Part shown: positions 22,018-32,848 of the stretch, piece by piece
Position numbering within the stretch: the first letter of the stretch is position 1
How the letters are laid out: each line of letters starts with the position of its first letter
Virus record (IMG/VR): IMGVR_UViG_3300042555_000104
Coordinates: 1 to 36,286 of that record
Source of the DNA: a virus
Length of the DNA stretch: 36,286 nucleotides
Reading direction: 5' to 3' (one strand)
Program-made: the position numbers and the translations under genes
Notes under the pieces: model-generated
The model's database searches: none
The model's input: the letters and a program-made list of their open reading frames with translations, nothing else
Told to the model about the DNA's origin: nothing

Positions 22018-22647
22018 ATGAGTTACATCGTGGCATCACTGCCGCCTATGAAGTGCTTTGTCAAGCGCGAGTTCTTGTACAACGATCACAAAGGCCATGG
22101 CGAACTGGAGCCTGCCATCTGGGTCAGTCTTAAAGCCCTGCGTGGCCAAGTGTTTCGCATTGAGTCGCTGTTGCCCAACTACGGCGCCCTGTACGACAAG
22201 CTGCCGATCCATGCCTACGTCTGGCACAAGGACGCTGGCGATCTGCCGATTGACACGCTACAGCTGTGGGACTGCATGGGCTACCGCTTTACGATTATTG
22301 AAAAGATCGGCCTGCGTAACCTAGGCGTCAAGTTCCTCGGCAAAGATAAAGAGTGGCACTTCGGGCGCTACTTGTTCACGGTGGACTTCTGCGCCGAGGG
22401 CATGGACTTAGACACGGGGTTCACAGAGCAGGCCGAGGAACACAAGTCGTTCAATTGGATTGCGCTAGACAACGGCCAGTTTGCTTGCCAGCCCAACAAC
22501 CGGTGCCTGTGGTACGACCAGAGCCTGATCCCTAGCGAGACAAAGTTCCCTGACTTCCAAGCGGCGCAACGTCTGTGGACAGTTGACGGTACACGCAAAT
22601 GGTCAGCCGGTGACGATTGGTTTTACGACATCAAGGAGAGAGCATGA
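22018..22647 (+). CDS. Conserved-looking protein of unknown function, 209 aa
   Basis: AAGGA six bases before the ATG gives a sound start (MSYIVASLPPMKCFVKREFL). The protein is rich in aromatic residues with a mixed alpha/beta pattern: AIWVSLKALRGQVFRIESLL, HAYVWHKDAGDLPIDTLQLW, FGRYLFTVDFC, NRCLWYDQSLIP. Similar proteins in phages carry no known function. No catalytic motif or membrane segment is evident. It follows the RHH-like gene and is coupled to the 53-aa gene downstream by ATGA. Confidence 0.72.
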   Translation: MSYIVASLPPMKCFVKREFLYNDHKGHGELEPAIWVSLKALRGQVFRIESLLPNYGALYDKLPIHAYVWHKDAGDLPIDTLQLWDCMGYRFTIIEKIGLRNLGVKFLGKDKEWHFGRYLFTVDFCAEGMDLDTGFTEQAEEHKSFNWIALDNGQFACQPNNRCLWYDQSLIPSETKFPDFQAAQRLWTVDGTRKWSAGDDWFYDIKERA

Positions 22648-28076: not shown

Positions 28077-28811
28077 TTAATCTTCTCCATAAATTTGTCG
28101 TTCGAGGGCTGCATTTGACGGCCCACTATAAGTAGAACGACGATTTTTTAATGCTTCAAGCAACGCATTATTTTGGGTGTAATTTAAATATGTGCCCATG
28201 CCACCAGTCAAAGCATTAGCCATACCCACTTGGCCAGCCGCTTGAGCCGCTGCGCCGCCAGTCATTAAGTTGCCTGCGCCAGTTGCGTAATTCTGACCAG
28301 CTTGACCAACTAAATTAGTAGCAGTTTGGCCGATGCCAGCCAATGCGGCTTGACGGTTGTACAGCTGGTTTTCGCGCGCTACATCAGTGTTGTAGCCAGT
28401 TAAAGCGCGATTGTATGCGTTGCCAAACTCTTGCGATCCCATCTCTTGACCAAAGCGCTGTGCAGCTCTTAAAGCACCACCAGAGATCAACCCGCCACGA
28501 GCCGCTGCTTGACGGTCAAGCGCCTTCTGGCCTTCAGCCAAACGGAAAGCATAGCCTGGATCAGCTTGATAATCGCCTGCGCCAAATTTAAACGCGCCAG
28601 GTACATTGCCAGCCGTGCGCTGTAAAGTAGCTAGTGCGTTATAGCCAGCCTCACGGTAAGGCGCTTGATCTGCGCGAGTTTGTTCAAACATCTCACGCTG
28701 AAGTTCAGCAGCGCGGTCAGCCGCAGCTGCTTGTGTTTCACCAGCTTTTTTTGCTGTGCGCGCGCCTACTAAACTACTAACAACCGTGGCTCCTGCTACC
28801 CATCCAGACAT
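28077..28811 (-). CDS. DNA-transfer/ejection protein, P22 gp7-like, 244 aa
   Basis: The N-terminal hydrophobic stretch MSGWVAGATVVSSLVGARTA is followed by a charged helix (REMFEQTRADQAPYREAGYN) and the segment FRLAEGQKALDRQAAARGGL plus LRAAQRFGQEMGSQEFGNAY. This 'RxAEGxKALxRxAAARG..SGGALxAxxRFGQ' pattern is typical of small phage DNA-transfer proteins. Gly/Ala-rich repeats fill the second half. AAGGAG seven bases before the ATG, inside the SET gene, supports the start. Confidence 0.82.
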   Translation of the reverse strand: MSGWVAGATVVSSLVGARTAKKAGETQAAAADRAAELQREMFEQTRADQAPYREAGYNALATLQRTAGNVPGAFKFGAGDYQADPGYAFRLAEGQKALDRQAAARGGLISGGALRAAQRFGQEMGSQEFGNAYNRALTGYNTDVARENQLYNRQAALAGIGQTATNLVGQAGQNYATGAGNLMTGGAAAQAAGQVGMANALTGGMGTYLNYTQNNALLEALKNRRSTYSGPSNAALERQIYGED

Positions 28812-29644
28812 GGCAATTCTCCTTGTAACGTGAGTCCAAAATTGACTCGCATTGATGCTCTGTAATCTACCAGTAATTCATCGCCAGCGCATATTTTACG
28901 CGCAGCAATTGCATAAATGTCATCCCCTACTTTTTCGGGTCTGATATTGCAGTTAAATGAGTGGTTAATAAAACGCCCGCCTGGGGTTCTTTTACCATCC
29001 ACTCGGCCTGGGCAAACAACTTCCCCAGCCTCAAAATCACGGGTTGCAAACAACCCTTTGCCGTGGATCGGCGAATCGCGCAATTCCACAGCCACGCCTT
29101 CAGGCATCTCCATCAAATCCGACTCGTTATGGACAATCGTGTCCATTTCATTCTGAGTCATACCGATCTGATATAGAAACGCGCCGTAATCAATCTGCGC
29201 TCTTTGTACATCAGTCCGGCTGTCAGCAAGGCCACAAGCAGGGACGACATACAAACGGTCTTCTAGCACCGCCAAATCATTGCAGTCGTCTGGGTTGTCG
29301 TATACGTCCACCCAAACCACTTCTTCTTCAAACACGCGCCCTGCGCGTTGCATTCCAGCTTTTGCCGGAAAGTCGCATGGGCCAGTAAATACTTTAACGC
29401 CGTCATCCGTATTGACTGCAATGGTGCCTTTTTCCACTCGGACGTGGTAGGGCGTCTTATGTTCTGCGCCAGTCAAAACAGTCCAAGCTGGAATCGTAAT
29501 CTTGCGCTCGTAAACACCTGGTTTAAAAATATGCTCGGTAACAATGTTGGCCTGCGGCATTTTTAAGAGTTCATTCTGCAACGCCAAAACCTTGCCCGTC
29601 ATGGACAAAGCTGGTGCAAAACCCTTGCCGTAGGTTACACGCAT
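28796..29644 (-). CDS. Cupin-SET fusion, putative lysine methyltransferase, 282 aa
   Basis: The first 115 residues form a cupin-like beta barrel (FKPGVYERKITIPAWTVLTG, KTPYHVRVEKGTI, then the strand EEEVVWVDVYD). The last 95 hold a SET domain: SPIHGKGLFATRDFEAGEVV (191-210), the pseudoknot motif RFINHS (224-229) with NCN, and GDELLVDY (254-261). These are the SAM- and lysine-binding motifs of protein lysine methyltransferases. The pre-SET and post-SET zinc cysteines are absent, as in many bacterial SET proteins. It sits within the structural module between a small beta protein and the gp7-like gene, so the substrate may be a virion or host protein. Substrate and activity are unknown. Confidence 0.85.
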   Translation of the reverse strand: MRVTYGKGFAPALSMTGKVLALQNELLKMPQANIVTEHIFKPGVYERKITIPAWTVLTGAEHKTPYHVRVEKGTIAVNTDDGVKVFTGPCDFPAKAGMQRAGRVFEEEVVWVDVYDNPDDCNDLAVLEDRLYVVPACGLADSRTDVQRAQIDYGAFLYQIGMTQNEMDTIVHNESDLMEMPEGVAVELRDSPIHGKGLFATRDFEAGEVVCPGRVDGKRTPGGRFINHSFNCNIRPEKVGDDIYAIAARKICAGDELLVDYRASMRVNFGLTLQGELPCLDG

Positions 29645-29979
29645 TAGGTCACCTCACGCCCAGAAACGCGAATGTTGATTGCGCTGGCTGTGCCTGCAAT
29701 TGTACTGATAAAGTCGCCCACGCCAAGCACTTGGCCAACCAGTTCAGGGAAGGTATAGACCTCAGACGCTTGCAAGGTCTTGGTCTTGGTGATCAAGTTG
29801 GTGTTACCGGCAGAGCCAGCAGTCGTCACCAAGTTCACGCTGATCGTGGCGGCAGACGCGCTGATGTTAGTTGCGGTAAACTTGTCAATGATGGCCGTAA
29901 CACCAGTCGCTGTGTACTGGGTTGTTTGGGCGTTTTCGGCAAATTTAGCCGGTACGAGGACTTTGACGGTGACAGTCAT
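29644..29979 (-). CDS. Small beta-rich virion-like protein, 111 aa
   Basis: The sequence is almost all beta strand (MTVTVKVLVPAKFAENA, TAIIDKFTATNISASAATIS, VNLVTTAGSAGNTNLI, INIRVSGREV). Small proteins of this appearance often coat or join phage tails. It starts four bases after the fibre stop and overlaps the SET gene by TAATG. No family is recognised. Confidence 0.68.
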   Translation of the reverse strand: MTVTVKVLVPAKFAENAQTTQYTATGVTAIIDKFTATNISASAATISVNLVTTAGSAGNTNLITKTKTLQASEVYTFPELVGQVLGVGDFISTIAGTASAINIRVSGREVT

Positions 29980-29982
29980 GGT

Positions 29983-31317
29983 TTACTCCAAGAGAAGGAT
30001 GTTATTCGGGATGTATTGTGTCATCAACCAGTTTGTGCCATCAGACACAAGTGTCGCAGAATCTCCGCTACTTGCCAAGAGAATTGATGTGGCCGCCGCG
30101 CCGCCTGCCAATGGAACTACGTTGCTGGACGCCGACACAAGCGCCCGTACTTGGTAGTTCTGAAAGTACAAAACGCGCCCTGTATTGGTTGACGGTGCTG
30201 GCAAGGTAACTGTGCAAGTGGAGCCTGACTTATTGTTGATCAGCCAAACTTCAGTTGCCGCAACCGTAAAGTCAGCCGTTTTGGTGACTGGCGCAGAGAC
30301 AGGCTGCTTGCTGTTAAACGTAGACCAATCAGCCGAGCTTAACGCGCCACGGTTGGTTGCCGAGGCCGTGGGCACGTTTAGCGTGATAACTGGCGTGGTG
30401 GTGCTGTTGGCAACAGTCGAGGAAAGATCCGTGCCAGTCGTGCCCAAAGTCAGCGCGGCCACCGAGGTGACTGTGCCAGAGCCTTTGTTGTTGAAAGTTG
30501 TCCAGTCAGTACTGGATAAAAAACCATTAGTAGAACCACTAGCTTGCGTGATACTTAGTGTGCCTGCCGAGTAAGCCAGCGGCGCGCTGATTGTAGTAGC
30601 GGCGACTGCTGTGCCATTGCCGTACAAAATGCCAGAAATGCTTGTGGTCAATGTTATGGCTGGCGTGGTGGTAGGGTTTGCCACCGTACCGGCAAAGCCG
30701 TTGGCAGACACAACAGACACGCTGGTGACCGTACCTGTACCATAGGGCAGGGCAGGAATGTCAGCCACCACCAAAGCCCTGAACGTAGGTACTGCCGCCG
30801 CACCAGCCGTAGGGCCAGCCAACACAAAGTTAGCAGTTTTGGCCGCATAGGGGTTTTGCGTATCGCCATAACCAGCTGCAAGGCTAATGTCAGGCGCAAT
30901 GCCTCCAGACGATAATACGGGCGCTGTGGCTGTTACAGCAGTGACCGTGCCTTGCGTGGGTGGGGGCAACAGACTGAGCGCCTCTAATTGCTTTTGCATT
31001 TCGGCAATCTGAGACAGCAACGCAGACGATTGATCTGTTAAACCAGCTTCTTGGATCTGCTTGGCTAACTCAGCGCTCAGATCAACTGGCGGGGGCTGGG
31101 TTTCAACATTCTGCGCCAATGCCTGCAAGGCCGCATCGTAAGATGCAATCAAAGACACCGTGTCAGTGCCAAGGTTTCCTTCGTCCACAATTGTGGCCGC
31201 ATTAAGGAGCGACAAAAAGAACAAGTACCAAGCGCGGTCAATCAGACCCGTGCGAGGGTCAATCAGCGGCACTCGTGGTGGCGTGATCGGCGTTGGTGTA
31301 GCGTTAGGGCTAGGCAT
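29983..31317 (-). CDS. Tail needle / fibre-like protein with repeats, 444 aa
   Basis: The N-terminal 50 residues are of the kind found at the attachment end of short-tailed phage fibres (PRVPLIDPRTGLIDRAWYLF), followed by a predicted coiled coil (SAELAKQIQEAGL, SALLSQIAEMQKQLEALS). Then come Gly/Thr-rich shaft repeats: GTVTxV at 123, 195 and 281, and G-x-LSS-x-DW-x-TFN-x-K at 265-278 and 324-337. A beta knob (TVTLPAPSTNTGRVLYFQNY) ends the protein. It occupies the slot of P22 tail needle gp26, so it probably plugs the tail tube or acts as a fibre. It overlaps the hub gene by 8 bases. Confidence 0.8.
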   Translation of the reverse strand: MPSPNATPTPITPPRVPLIDPRTGLIDRAWYLFFLSLLNAATIVDEGNLGTDTVSLIASYDAALQALAQNVETQPPPVDLSAELAKQIQEAGLTDQSSALLSQIAEMQKQLEALSLLPPPTQGTVTAVTATAPVLSSGGIAPDISLAAGYGDTQNPYAAKTANFVLAGPTAGAAAVPTFRALVVADIPALPYGTGTVTSVSVVSANGFAGTVANPTTTPAITLTTSISGILYGNGTAVAATTISAPLAYSAGTLSITQASGSTNGFLSSTDWTTFNNKGSGTVTSVAALTLGTTGTDLSSTVANSTTTPVITLNVPTASATNRGALSSADWSTFNSKQPVSAPVTKTADFTVAATEVWLINNKSGSTCTVTLPAPSTNTGRVLYFQNYQVRALVSASSNVVPLAGGAAATSILLASSGDSATLVSDGTNWLMTQYIPNNILLLE

Positions 31318-32848
31318 TCGTTGGACTCAGAATAAGTTCTGCGCCCATGATGGCAATCTTCACAGGGTCAGTGCCAGACACCTCATAAACTCGGTCACGC
31401 AGTTTGACAGTCATGCCCAAACGCCGCCAGATTACACGTTTGTAATACTGGCCAATCTTGCCCATGGACGCCCAATGCTCGCTTGACCATGTGTGGCCAC
31501 CATCATCTGACCAACGCAACATGACTTGCGGATCCGCGCCTTGGGTTGCAACTGCTTCTTGATCGGCAATTAAAAAGTCATTACTTTCGGTGATTAAATA
31601 ATCGCCAAGTTCAGTCTCAAGATAGATTACTTCAGAAGTCACATAGCCATTTAAGCCCACGCCAGATTCGCAATCAAGTTGCATCATGTGCTGGGTTGTG
31701 CGCTTGAGGTTATTTTGACCAGTCGGCAGCGCGCGCCATGTGCGTAGCCATTTTTGAACGCCGTTGTTGTCTGAATAGTCGTCTAAGTCAAACGCATAGA
31801 CGTTACCGTTTTCAAAGTCGCCGATAAGAATATTGTTGTTAAACGCCATTTGGCAATTACCACGGTGACGAGTAAAGTTACCGTTGGAAAAGCCCGCACG
31901 CTCATGCCAGGCTTGTGTGGCGGCGTCATAGACCCAAGTGGTGTTAGCACTAGGAAAAACCAGTACATAAAAGCTGTGGCCGTCTTGTTGATAAGTGTAA
32001 GCAATAGCGTCCGACAGATCGGCATACTGCTGAATCTGCCACTCAACAGCGTGCGTGGAAATGCGAACGCCGGTGTAGCCGTTGGCGCGGTAGACAATAC
32101 CCTCACCACGGCGGTCACGGCCAAGCCAGAACAGGCCGTTGTCCATTTTGGCAACCGAATAAGGGGCAGCACAGCCCAACTCATTAAACGCGCCTTGGAT
32201 GCGCTGTAATGGGAAGTCTGTTGCGCCAGAGTCGTACCAGACTTCAATCGAGTTAGTGCCAAAGGCCCACACCTCGCGGAAGTTGGCTGCTACGGCCACC
32301 AAACCGTCAGGCGAGCCTTCAGTGCTAGCAAACTCAAGCGGGTCAATGGACGTGCCGTCTAGCAGTGCAGTAATCCACAGCTTTTGGCTATTTGGCTCGT
32401 TGAACACAAAATAGCCGTCCAGATAGCAAACAGTCACAGCACCTGGGAAGTCTGGGTCAGTAATCTGACCGAAGGCGTTTGTGGTGTTGTTGTAGATGTA
32501 ACTAGGGCCATTGGCCGCAATGAACAACTGCGTGCCGTTGTCAGCCAAACTGACAGGGCCAGTGCCGGCTACCGTGCCGATTAGCGTGGCCACATACGCA
32601 GTGGTGATCTTGTAAAGTTGCGTGCCAGAAACAACAAACGCTGTGCTGTCGCTAGATGAGAACGCCCACAGGCCACGGATCGGGCCGTTGCCAATGGTGT
32701 TAAGGAGTTTAAGGCCAGGGGCGCGGTTTAGGAACGCAGGCTCTTTACCGGCCTCGGGGACGATCTCTGGAAACAGATTGACCATCCGAGCGTCTGCCGC
32801 ATTGACAGACCGCGCTACATAAGTAGAGCCAAGAATCGGCGTCTTCAT
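31310..32848 (-). CDS. Tail hub / DNA stabilisation protein, P22 gp10-like, 512 aa
   Basis: The start MKTPILGSTYVARSVNAADA with RMVNLFPEI is the hallmark of P22 gp10-like proteins. The body is a beta-propeller-like series of short blades (WAFSSSDSTAFVVSGTQLYK, DGYFVFNEPNS, WAFGTNSIEVWYDSGATDFP, GRDRRGEGIVYRANGY, WVYDAATQAWHERAG). It forms the hub that closes the portal after packaging and carries spikes and needle. The ATG overlaps the stop of the adaptor gene (TAATG). Confidence 0.88.
   Translation of the reverse strand: MKTPILGSTYVARSVNAADARMVNLFPEIVPEAGKEPAFLNRAPGLKLLNTIGNGPIRGLWAFSSSDSTAFVVSGTQLYKITTAYVATLIGTVAGTGPVSLADNGTQLFIAANGPSYIYNNTTNAFGQITDPDFPGAVTVCYLDGYFVFNEPNSQKLWITALLDGTSIDPLEFASTEGSPDGLVAVAANFREVWAFGTNSIEVWYDSGATDFPLQRIQGAFNELGCAAPYSVAKMDNGLFWLGRDRRGEGIVYRANGYTGVRISTHAVEWQIQQYADLSDAIAYTYQQDGHSFYVLVFPSANTTWVYDAATQAWHERAGFSNGNFTRHRGNCQMAFNNNILIGDFENGNVYAFDLDDYSDNNGVQKWLRTWRALPTGQNNLKRTTQHMMQLDCESGVGLNGYVTSEVIYLETELGDYLITESNDFLIADQEAVATQGADPQVMLRWSDDGGHTWSSEHWASMGKIGQYYKRVIWRRLGMTVKLRDRVYEVSGTDPVKIAIMGAELILSPTNA

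Follow-up and report, generated by a model that had tools for sequence, protein, structure and literature searches.

A cupin-SET fusion, a putative protein methyltransferase, encoded beside the ejection genes of podophages

A 282-residue fusion of a cupin barrel with a compact SET domain is encoded on the minus strand, within the virion gene block, of a viral DNA stretch of 36,286 nucleotides (IMG/VR record IMGVR_UViG_3300042555_000104; the whole stretch analysed is called the window). It belongs to a real and widespread family of phage proteins that is catalogued computationally yet undescribed; the literature library searched had no paper on phage SET-cupin proteins, including those of PHROG 34170, a family of the same full-length fusion that bears no function label. 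SET enzymes are best known for methylating lysines in the proteins of complex cells and, to our knowledge, have been studied almost wholly as modifiers of eukaryotic chromatin and translation. New here are a SET domain about 35 residues shorter than that of MLL1 between the GxG and NHS motifs; the occurrence of the cupin alone at the same gene slot in many phages, with at least seven changes of SET state in the clade of the window and SET remnants in some SET-less genes; and, in two other phages, a cupin gene that neighbours a GNAT acetyltransferase gene. We propose, at roughly even odds (about 0.5), that in this fusion a conserved morphogenesis protein of podophages, the cupin, has tethered to it an accessory SAM-dependent methyltransferase that acts on late phage proteins.

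The fusion gene, its neighbours and its occurrence

The open reading frame is intact and the opposite (plus) strand is stop-rich (Table 1). Residues 18–267 of the protein aligned with positions 19–283 of the 296-position PHROG 34170 model, spanning both domains; the N-terminal half matched PHROG 12032/24280 in the PHROG search, and the full-length AF2 model, built from an alignment of 87 sequences, showed two confident domains. A sequence-only reading of this DNA had proposed a cupin-SET fusion, and the matches to Pfam SET and PHROG 34170, with both folds recovered by AF2 and Foldseek, uphold that proposal.

Table 1. Coordinates of the cupin-SET gene, its parts, its neighbours and the GNAT-cupin gene pairs (window coordinates unless a locus is named)
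Feature	Position	Strand	Basis or remark
Cupin-SET fusion gene (282 aa)	28796..29644	-	Intact ORF; PHROG 34170, 1.2e-40; AF2 pLDDT 89.7
Cupin barrel, residues ~18-135	29240..29593	-	PHROG 12032/24280 match; AF2; Foldseek
Pre-SET helical linker, residues ~146-181	29102..29209	-	AF2 helices 145-159 and 164-171
Compact SET domain, residues ~183-263	28856..29098	-	Pfam SET, 3.8e-11; MLL1, SETD8 and vSET profile/fold matches
Catalytic Tyr261 codon	28862..28864	-	Homolog alignment
P22 gp7-like DNA-ejection protein (244 aa), downstream	28077..28811	-	phrog_598, E 6e-40
111-aa gene, upstream, at about the P22 gene-14/26 position	29644..29979	-	Pfam/PHROG: no match
P22 gp10-like head-closure protein	31310..32848	-	Phage_stabilise, 5.6e-11; phrog_578, 1.5e-136
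GNAT-cupin neighbour pairs	L377:8480-9399 (BPP-1 bbp24-bbp23); L380:2894-3842		Two unrelated podophages

The minus-strand genes run in the order major head protein, P22 gp4-like, gp10-like, a 444-aa gene, the 111-aa gene, cupin-SET, gp7-like and two large genes, the last two sitting at the gp20 and gp16 positions and being assigned by position only. The cupin-SET gene starts at a TAATG junction, overlapping the 111-aa gene by 1 nt, and its last 16 nt are shared with the beginning of the gp7-like gene, so that the AAGGAG ribosome site of the gp7-like gene lies within SET coding sequence. Because of these two overlaps and of the embedded ribosome site, the cupin-SET gene is taken as a member of a late virion operon. 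The sequence-only reading had placed it between a small structural-type gene and a gp7-like ejection gene, overlapping both; the overlaps and the gp7-like neighbour stand, whereas the “structural-type” label of the upstream gene does not, as no family matched. The gene directly downstream was homologous to the gp7-like gene of the window in 231 of 258 loci. On the strand opposite the virion cassette, window positions 22018-22647 (+ strand) encode an auxiliary-type protein of the ferredoxin family (phrog_3704, 1.9e-73).

Among 50,697 phage records the fusion was present in five distinct phages only: Rhodoferax phage P26218, Pseudoalteromonas phage PH1, zth2-2 and two Manatee Spring phages, in each of which it precedes ejection genes. 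Single scans of IMG/VR returned at least 568 and at least 514 related stretches; the fusion was found in hundreds of IMG/VR contigs, usually at the same gene slot, and the loci retrieved held 302 ORFs with both domains, 71 with the cupin alone and 4 with SET alone. The same fusion thus does occur in other phages, where the sequence-only reading had advised looking for it, and a chance or one-off fusion is rejected by its hundreds of homologs. One SET query against plasmids gave no match. The deposited annotation of one locus (MW202557.1, L055:4413-5231) is without the cupin-SET gene and lists a reverse-strand “contryphan” ORF just upstream.

Properties of the SET and cupin halves

The fusion protein carries S191-P-I-H-G-K-G-L-F, R224-F-I-N-H-S229 with N233, and G-D-E256-L-L-V-D260-Y261, which is the full set of SET motifs first recognised by eye (HGKGLF, RFINHS with NCN, GDELLVDY). 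A profile search of the PDB with the SET halves matched MLL1 (1.9e-13) and the PBCV-1 vSET (1.8e-8). The whole-protein AF2 model, compared with the PDB by Foldseek, matched the SET domains of MLL1 (1.1e-5) and SETD8 (1.8e-5); the SET half modelled alone (pLDDT 92.4) matched MLL1 at 1.6e-7, and its best 50 PDB matches were all SET-domain methyltransferases or complexes containing one. Structure prediction, which had been suggested as a check, therefore returned a SET fold, and the catalytic Tyr261, on whose presence the original suggestion leaned, is Tyr in all 198 of the aligned distinct homologs having a residue at that column.

Across 199 distinct fusions S191, G195, G197, N227 and E256 were invariant, and H228 and N233 were each kept in 198. 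In the near clade the median pairwise dN/dS was lowest in the cupin (0.05) and about twice as high in SET (0.10) and in the linker (0.11). Given the near-complete conservation of the GxG, NHS..N, Glu and Tyr positions and a dN/dS of about 0.1, we infer from sequence that the SET half is probably an active methyltransferase. A degenerate SET domain was rejected as the catalytic and SAM-pocket residues are kept across these fusions.

The domain is short. Of 190 matched sequences, 189 had a GxG-to-NHS span of 35 residues, and the corresponding interval is about 35 residues longer in MLL1 (42 versus 7 residues between two aligned blocks), so the SET-I region is largely absent; a full-length SET-I insert and substrate channel elements were looked for and not found in phage SET. 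The length of SET-I varies within the SET superfamily, and short forms, vSET among them, are recognised as belonging to it; the shortening accordingly marks a variant rather than excluding the protein from the family. Substrate binding may be unusual in consequence of the shortened SET. MLL1/KMT2A and SETD8/KMT5A have in common with the phage domain the GxG, RFxNHSxxPN and ExxxDY motifs and the fold (about 29–30% identity with MLL1 over aligned columns); unlike them, the phage SET is largely missing the SET-I region, has no post-SET cysteine cluster, is fused to a cupin and is phage-borne. The PBCV-1 vSET (A612L) is likewise small, viral and devoid of a post-SET, and its fold compares with that of the phage domain at TM 0.61 (by target length); vSET is a free histone methyltransferase of 119 aa from an algal virus, whereas the phage SET core has about 81 residues and lies within a phage virion-gene operon. 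The linker helices carry a DY..L...G....(.)D.i.MP motif that is also found upstream of unfused SETs (L261-L263), and because the same helices precede unfused SETs they are assigned to the SET module.

The N-terminal half of the AF2 model matched PDB cupins in Foldseek (2.2e-6, probability 1.0) as an RmlC-like double-stranded beta barrel, in agreement with the cupin-like barrel first proposed. Residues R47, G59, G73 and G97 were invariant and Q31, H38 and W111 near-invariant, in SET-plus and SET-minus forms alike. The HxH..E and H ligands of metal-binding cupins were not conserved, the classical His positions 62, 66 and 105 being variable; a metal-dependent cupin enzyme or ligand sensor is therefore unsupported, and the earlier idea that the cupin half senses a ligand was not borne out. 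With these positions variable and other residues invariant, a binding or structural role is more likely for the cupin half than an enzymatic one, judged from its sequence conservation. Proteins of PHROG 12032/24280 (BPP-1 Bbp23, Thalassomonas BA3, Shewanella X14) are homologous to the cupin half and occupy the same slot in P22-like and T7-like phages, but unlike the window fusion have no SET half. The names “short tail fiber” and “tail fiber adhesin” attached to these families (e.g., L057:8914-9474 and L377:8941-9399) look like propagated misannotation, because the fold is that of a cupin, the slot is that of an ejection or portal gene neighbour, and no fibre features were seen; one homolog bears the label “structural”. 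The alignment of divergent cupins was too variable to serve for a collection scan.

The SET half as an optional part

Thalassomonas BA3, Shewanella X14, DSL-LC05 and others have a cupin without SET at the slot of the fusion. T7-like phages (Variovorax VAC_51, Sphaerotilus R1) likewise have the cupin alone, between the gp12-like and gp14-like genes, a slot equivalent to that of T7 gp13 (Pfam “probable scaffold protein Gp13”), this resemblance being positional only. SET is missing from most cultured phages having the cupin. Within the clade of the window 14 of 99 distinct rows had no SET; the cupin DNA tree of this clade needs 10 changes of SET state, and its starred branches alone force 7. The cupin DNA of the SET-less L341 and the SET-bearing L359 is 98% identical. 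C-terminal remnants of SET scored 10.1 bits in L048 and 16.1 bits in L326, values that none of 200 shuffles reached, and in L048 an in-frame deletion of SET is directly visible; the remaining SET-less tails gave a weak score or none against shuffles. Several SET-less genes keep the pre-SET linker and continue into a different short tail, the C-termini of L346, L341, L355, L362 and L366 having a similar one (D-I/L-C-x-x-V-A-x-K/R-M/I-Q), which may be what decay has left of the final SET hairpin, or else a different allele. Where remnants exist, the sequences indicate that the direction of change is loss; for changes without remnants, allele exchange by recombination is equally possible. Its repeated loss implies that SET is dispensable for making virions.

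At L263:9632-11079 (Paraburkholderia ferrariae), in a phage-like region with an integrase nearby, cupin and SET are encoded by two separate genes that adjoin and overlap. In Bordetella phage BPP-1 and in Acinetobacter phage MD-2021a the cupin gene has a GNAT acetyltransferase gene (phrog_1249) directly beside it. Though few, these two examples suggest that this cupin is repeatedly accompanied by small protein-modifying enzymes.

Proposed function and candidate targets

As the cupin-SET gene is translationally coupled to the ejection gene, late phage proteins are the most likely targets. The cupin half would be the core part: it occurs alone, is strongly constrained and in most cases neighbours the gene for the first ejection protein (gp7- or T7 gp14-like). 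We infer that its probable place of action is the portal/tail vertex, in the course of assembly. To this the SET half would add an optional enzymatic part, with SAM probably bound in the GxG..NHS pocket and Tyr261 probably used in methylating an amine, either a lysine side chain or possibly an alpha-amine; it would most likely act on late phage proteins that the cupin holds, or accompany them, rather than act on random host proteins. It is plausible that the protein serves in assembly or within the virion. The link to gp7 is not universal, since the cupin genes of BPP-1 and Alteromonas phage R8W lie near the portal gene, away from ejection genes.

The fusion might instead be packaged and injected; at entry its SET half would then methylate proteins of the host, acting as an effector of host takeover or counter-defence and being of host-dependent value. 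The position of the cupin within the virion cassette beside ejection genes would suit such an effector, and the flip of SET between phages as nearly identical as L341 and L359 is typical of host-dependent accessory functions; however, a folded barrel would need to pass through the tail channel, and the absence of SET from most cultured cupin-bearing phages also argues against this account, which we consider unlikely.

Another candidate target of SET is the ejection protein, whose N-terminus might be the modified site. In the clade of the window, every one of the 83 SET-plus rows had Ser after the initiator Met of the gp7-like protein, whereas 12 of the 13 SET-minus rows had Ala there; this residue and the SET state changed together in 5–6 independent pairs and never oppositely (sign test, p 0.03–0.06). 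In the gp7-like gene of the window the second codon, within 28803-28811, is Ser; nearly all of the SET-less sisters, which include L341, L346, L355, L048, L362, L364, L366, L049, L375 and L376, have Ala. In this clade the loss of SET also abolishes the gene overlap, which confounds the association; among loci with no overlap, those with SET had 47 Ser and 2 Ala, and those without had 5 Ser, 12 Ala and 1 Thr. Against modification of the ejection protein, SET-less Vibrio-type phages keep Ser at this residue, and in P22 the gp7 N-terminus is cleaved after residue 20 by the host protease OpdA and is largely dispensable, its deletion having little effect (PMC8402733). Lysines near the gp7-like N-terminus were unconserved in SET-plus phages and had no pairwise association with SET on the tree, which argues against a conserved N-terminal lysine of gp7 as the substrate. 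The Ser2/Ala2 association is real and is confounded by gene overlap and clade; we treat it as a lead, providing no evidence of a target, and regard modification of the ejection protein as quite improbable.

That SET is retained for structure as a non-catalytic protein- or peptide-binding domain, as its shortening might hint, is very improbable, since a dead domain would be expected to lose the Tyr or NHS sometimes and the catalytic and SAM-pocket residues are invariant or nearly so in 199 divergent sequences.

To return to the proposed accessory methyltransferase, hundreds of environmental viruses join a compact and, from its sequence, very probably active SET domain to a morphogenesis protein of the phage. 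Tentatively, and on the doubtful side, a large group of podophages may possess in it a detachable methyltransferase domain, borne on a virion-assembly protein, that methylates the ejection apparatus or an injected host target, with GNATs in the same role in other phages, as a general host-dependent strategy. Two growable isolates, Rhodoferax phage P26218 and Pseudoalteromonas phage PH1, carry the fusion. Sister phages with and without SET occur naturally, some of them with cupin DNA that is 98% identical, and offer a ready comparison for finding the target, one that bears on the question of whether phages modify their own injection machinery or the proteins of their hosts.
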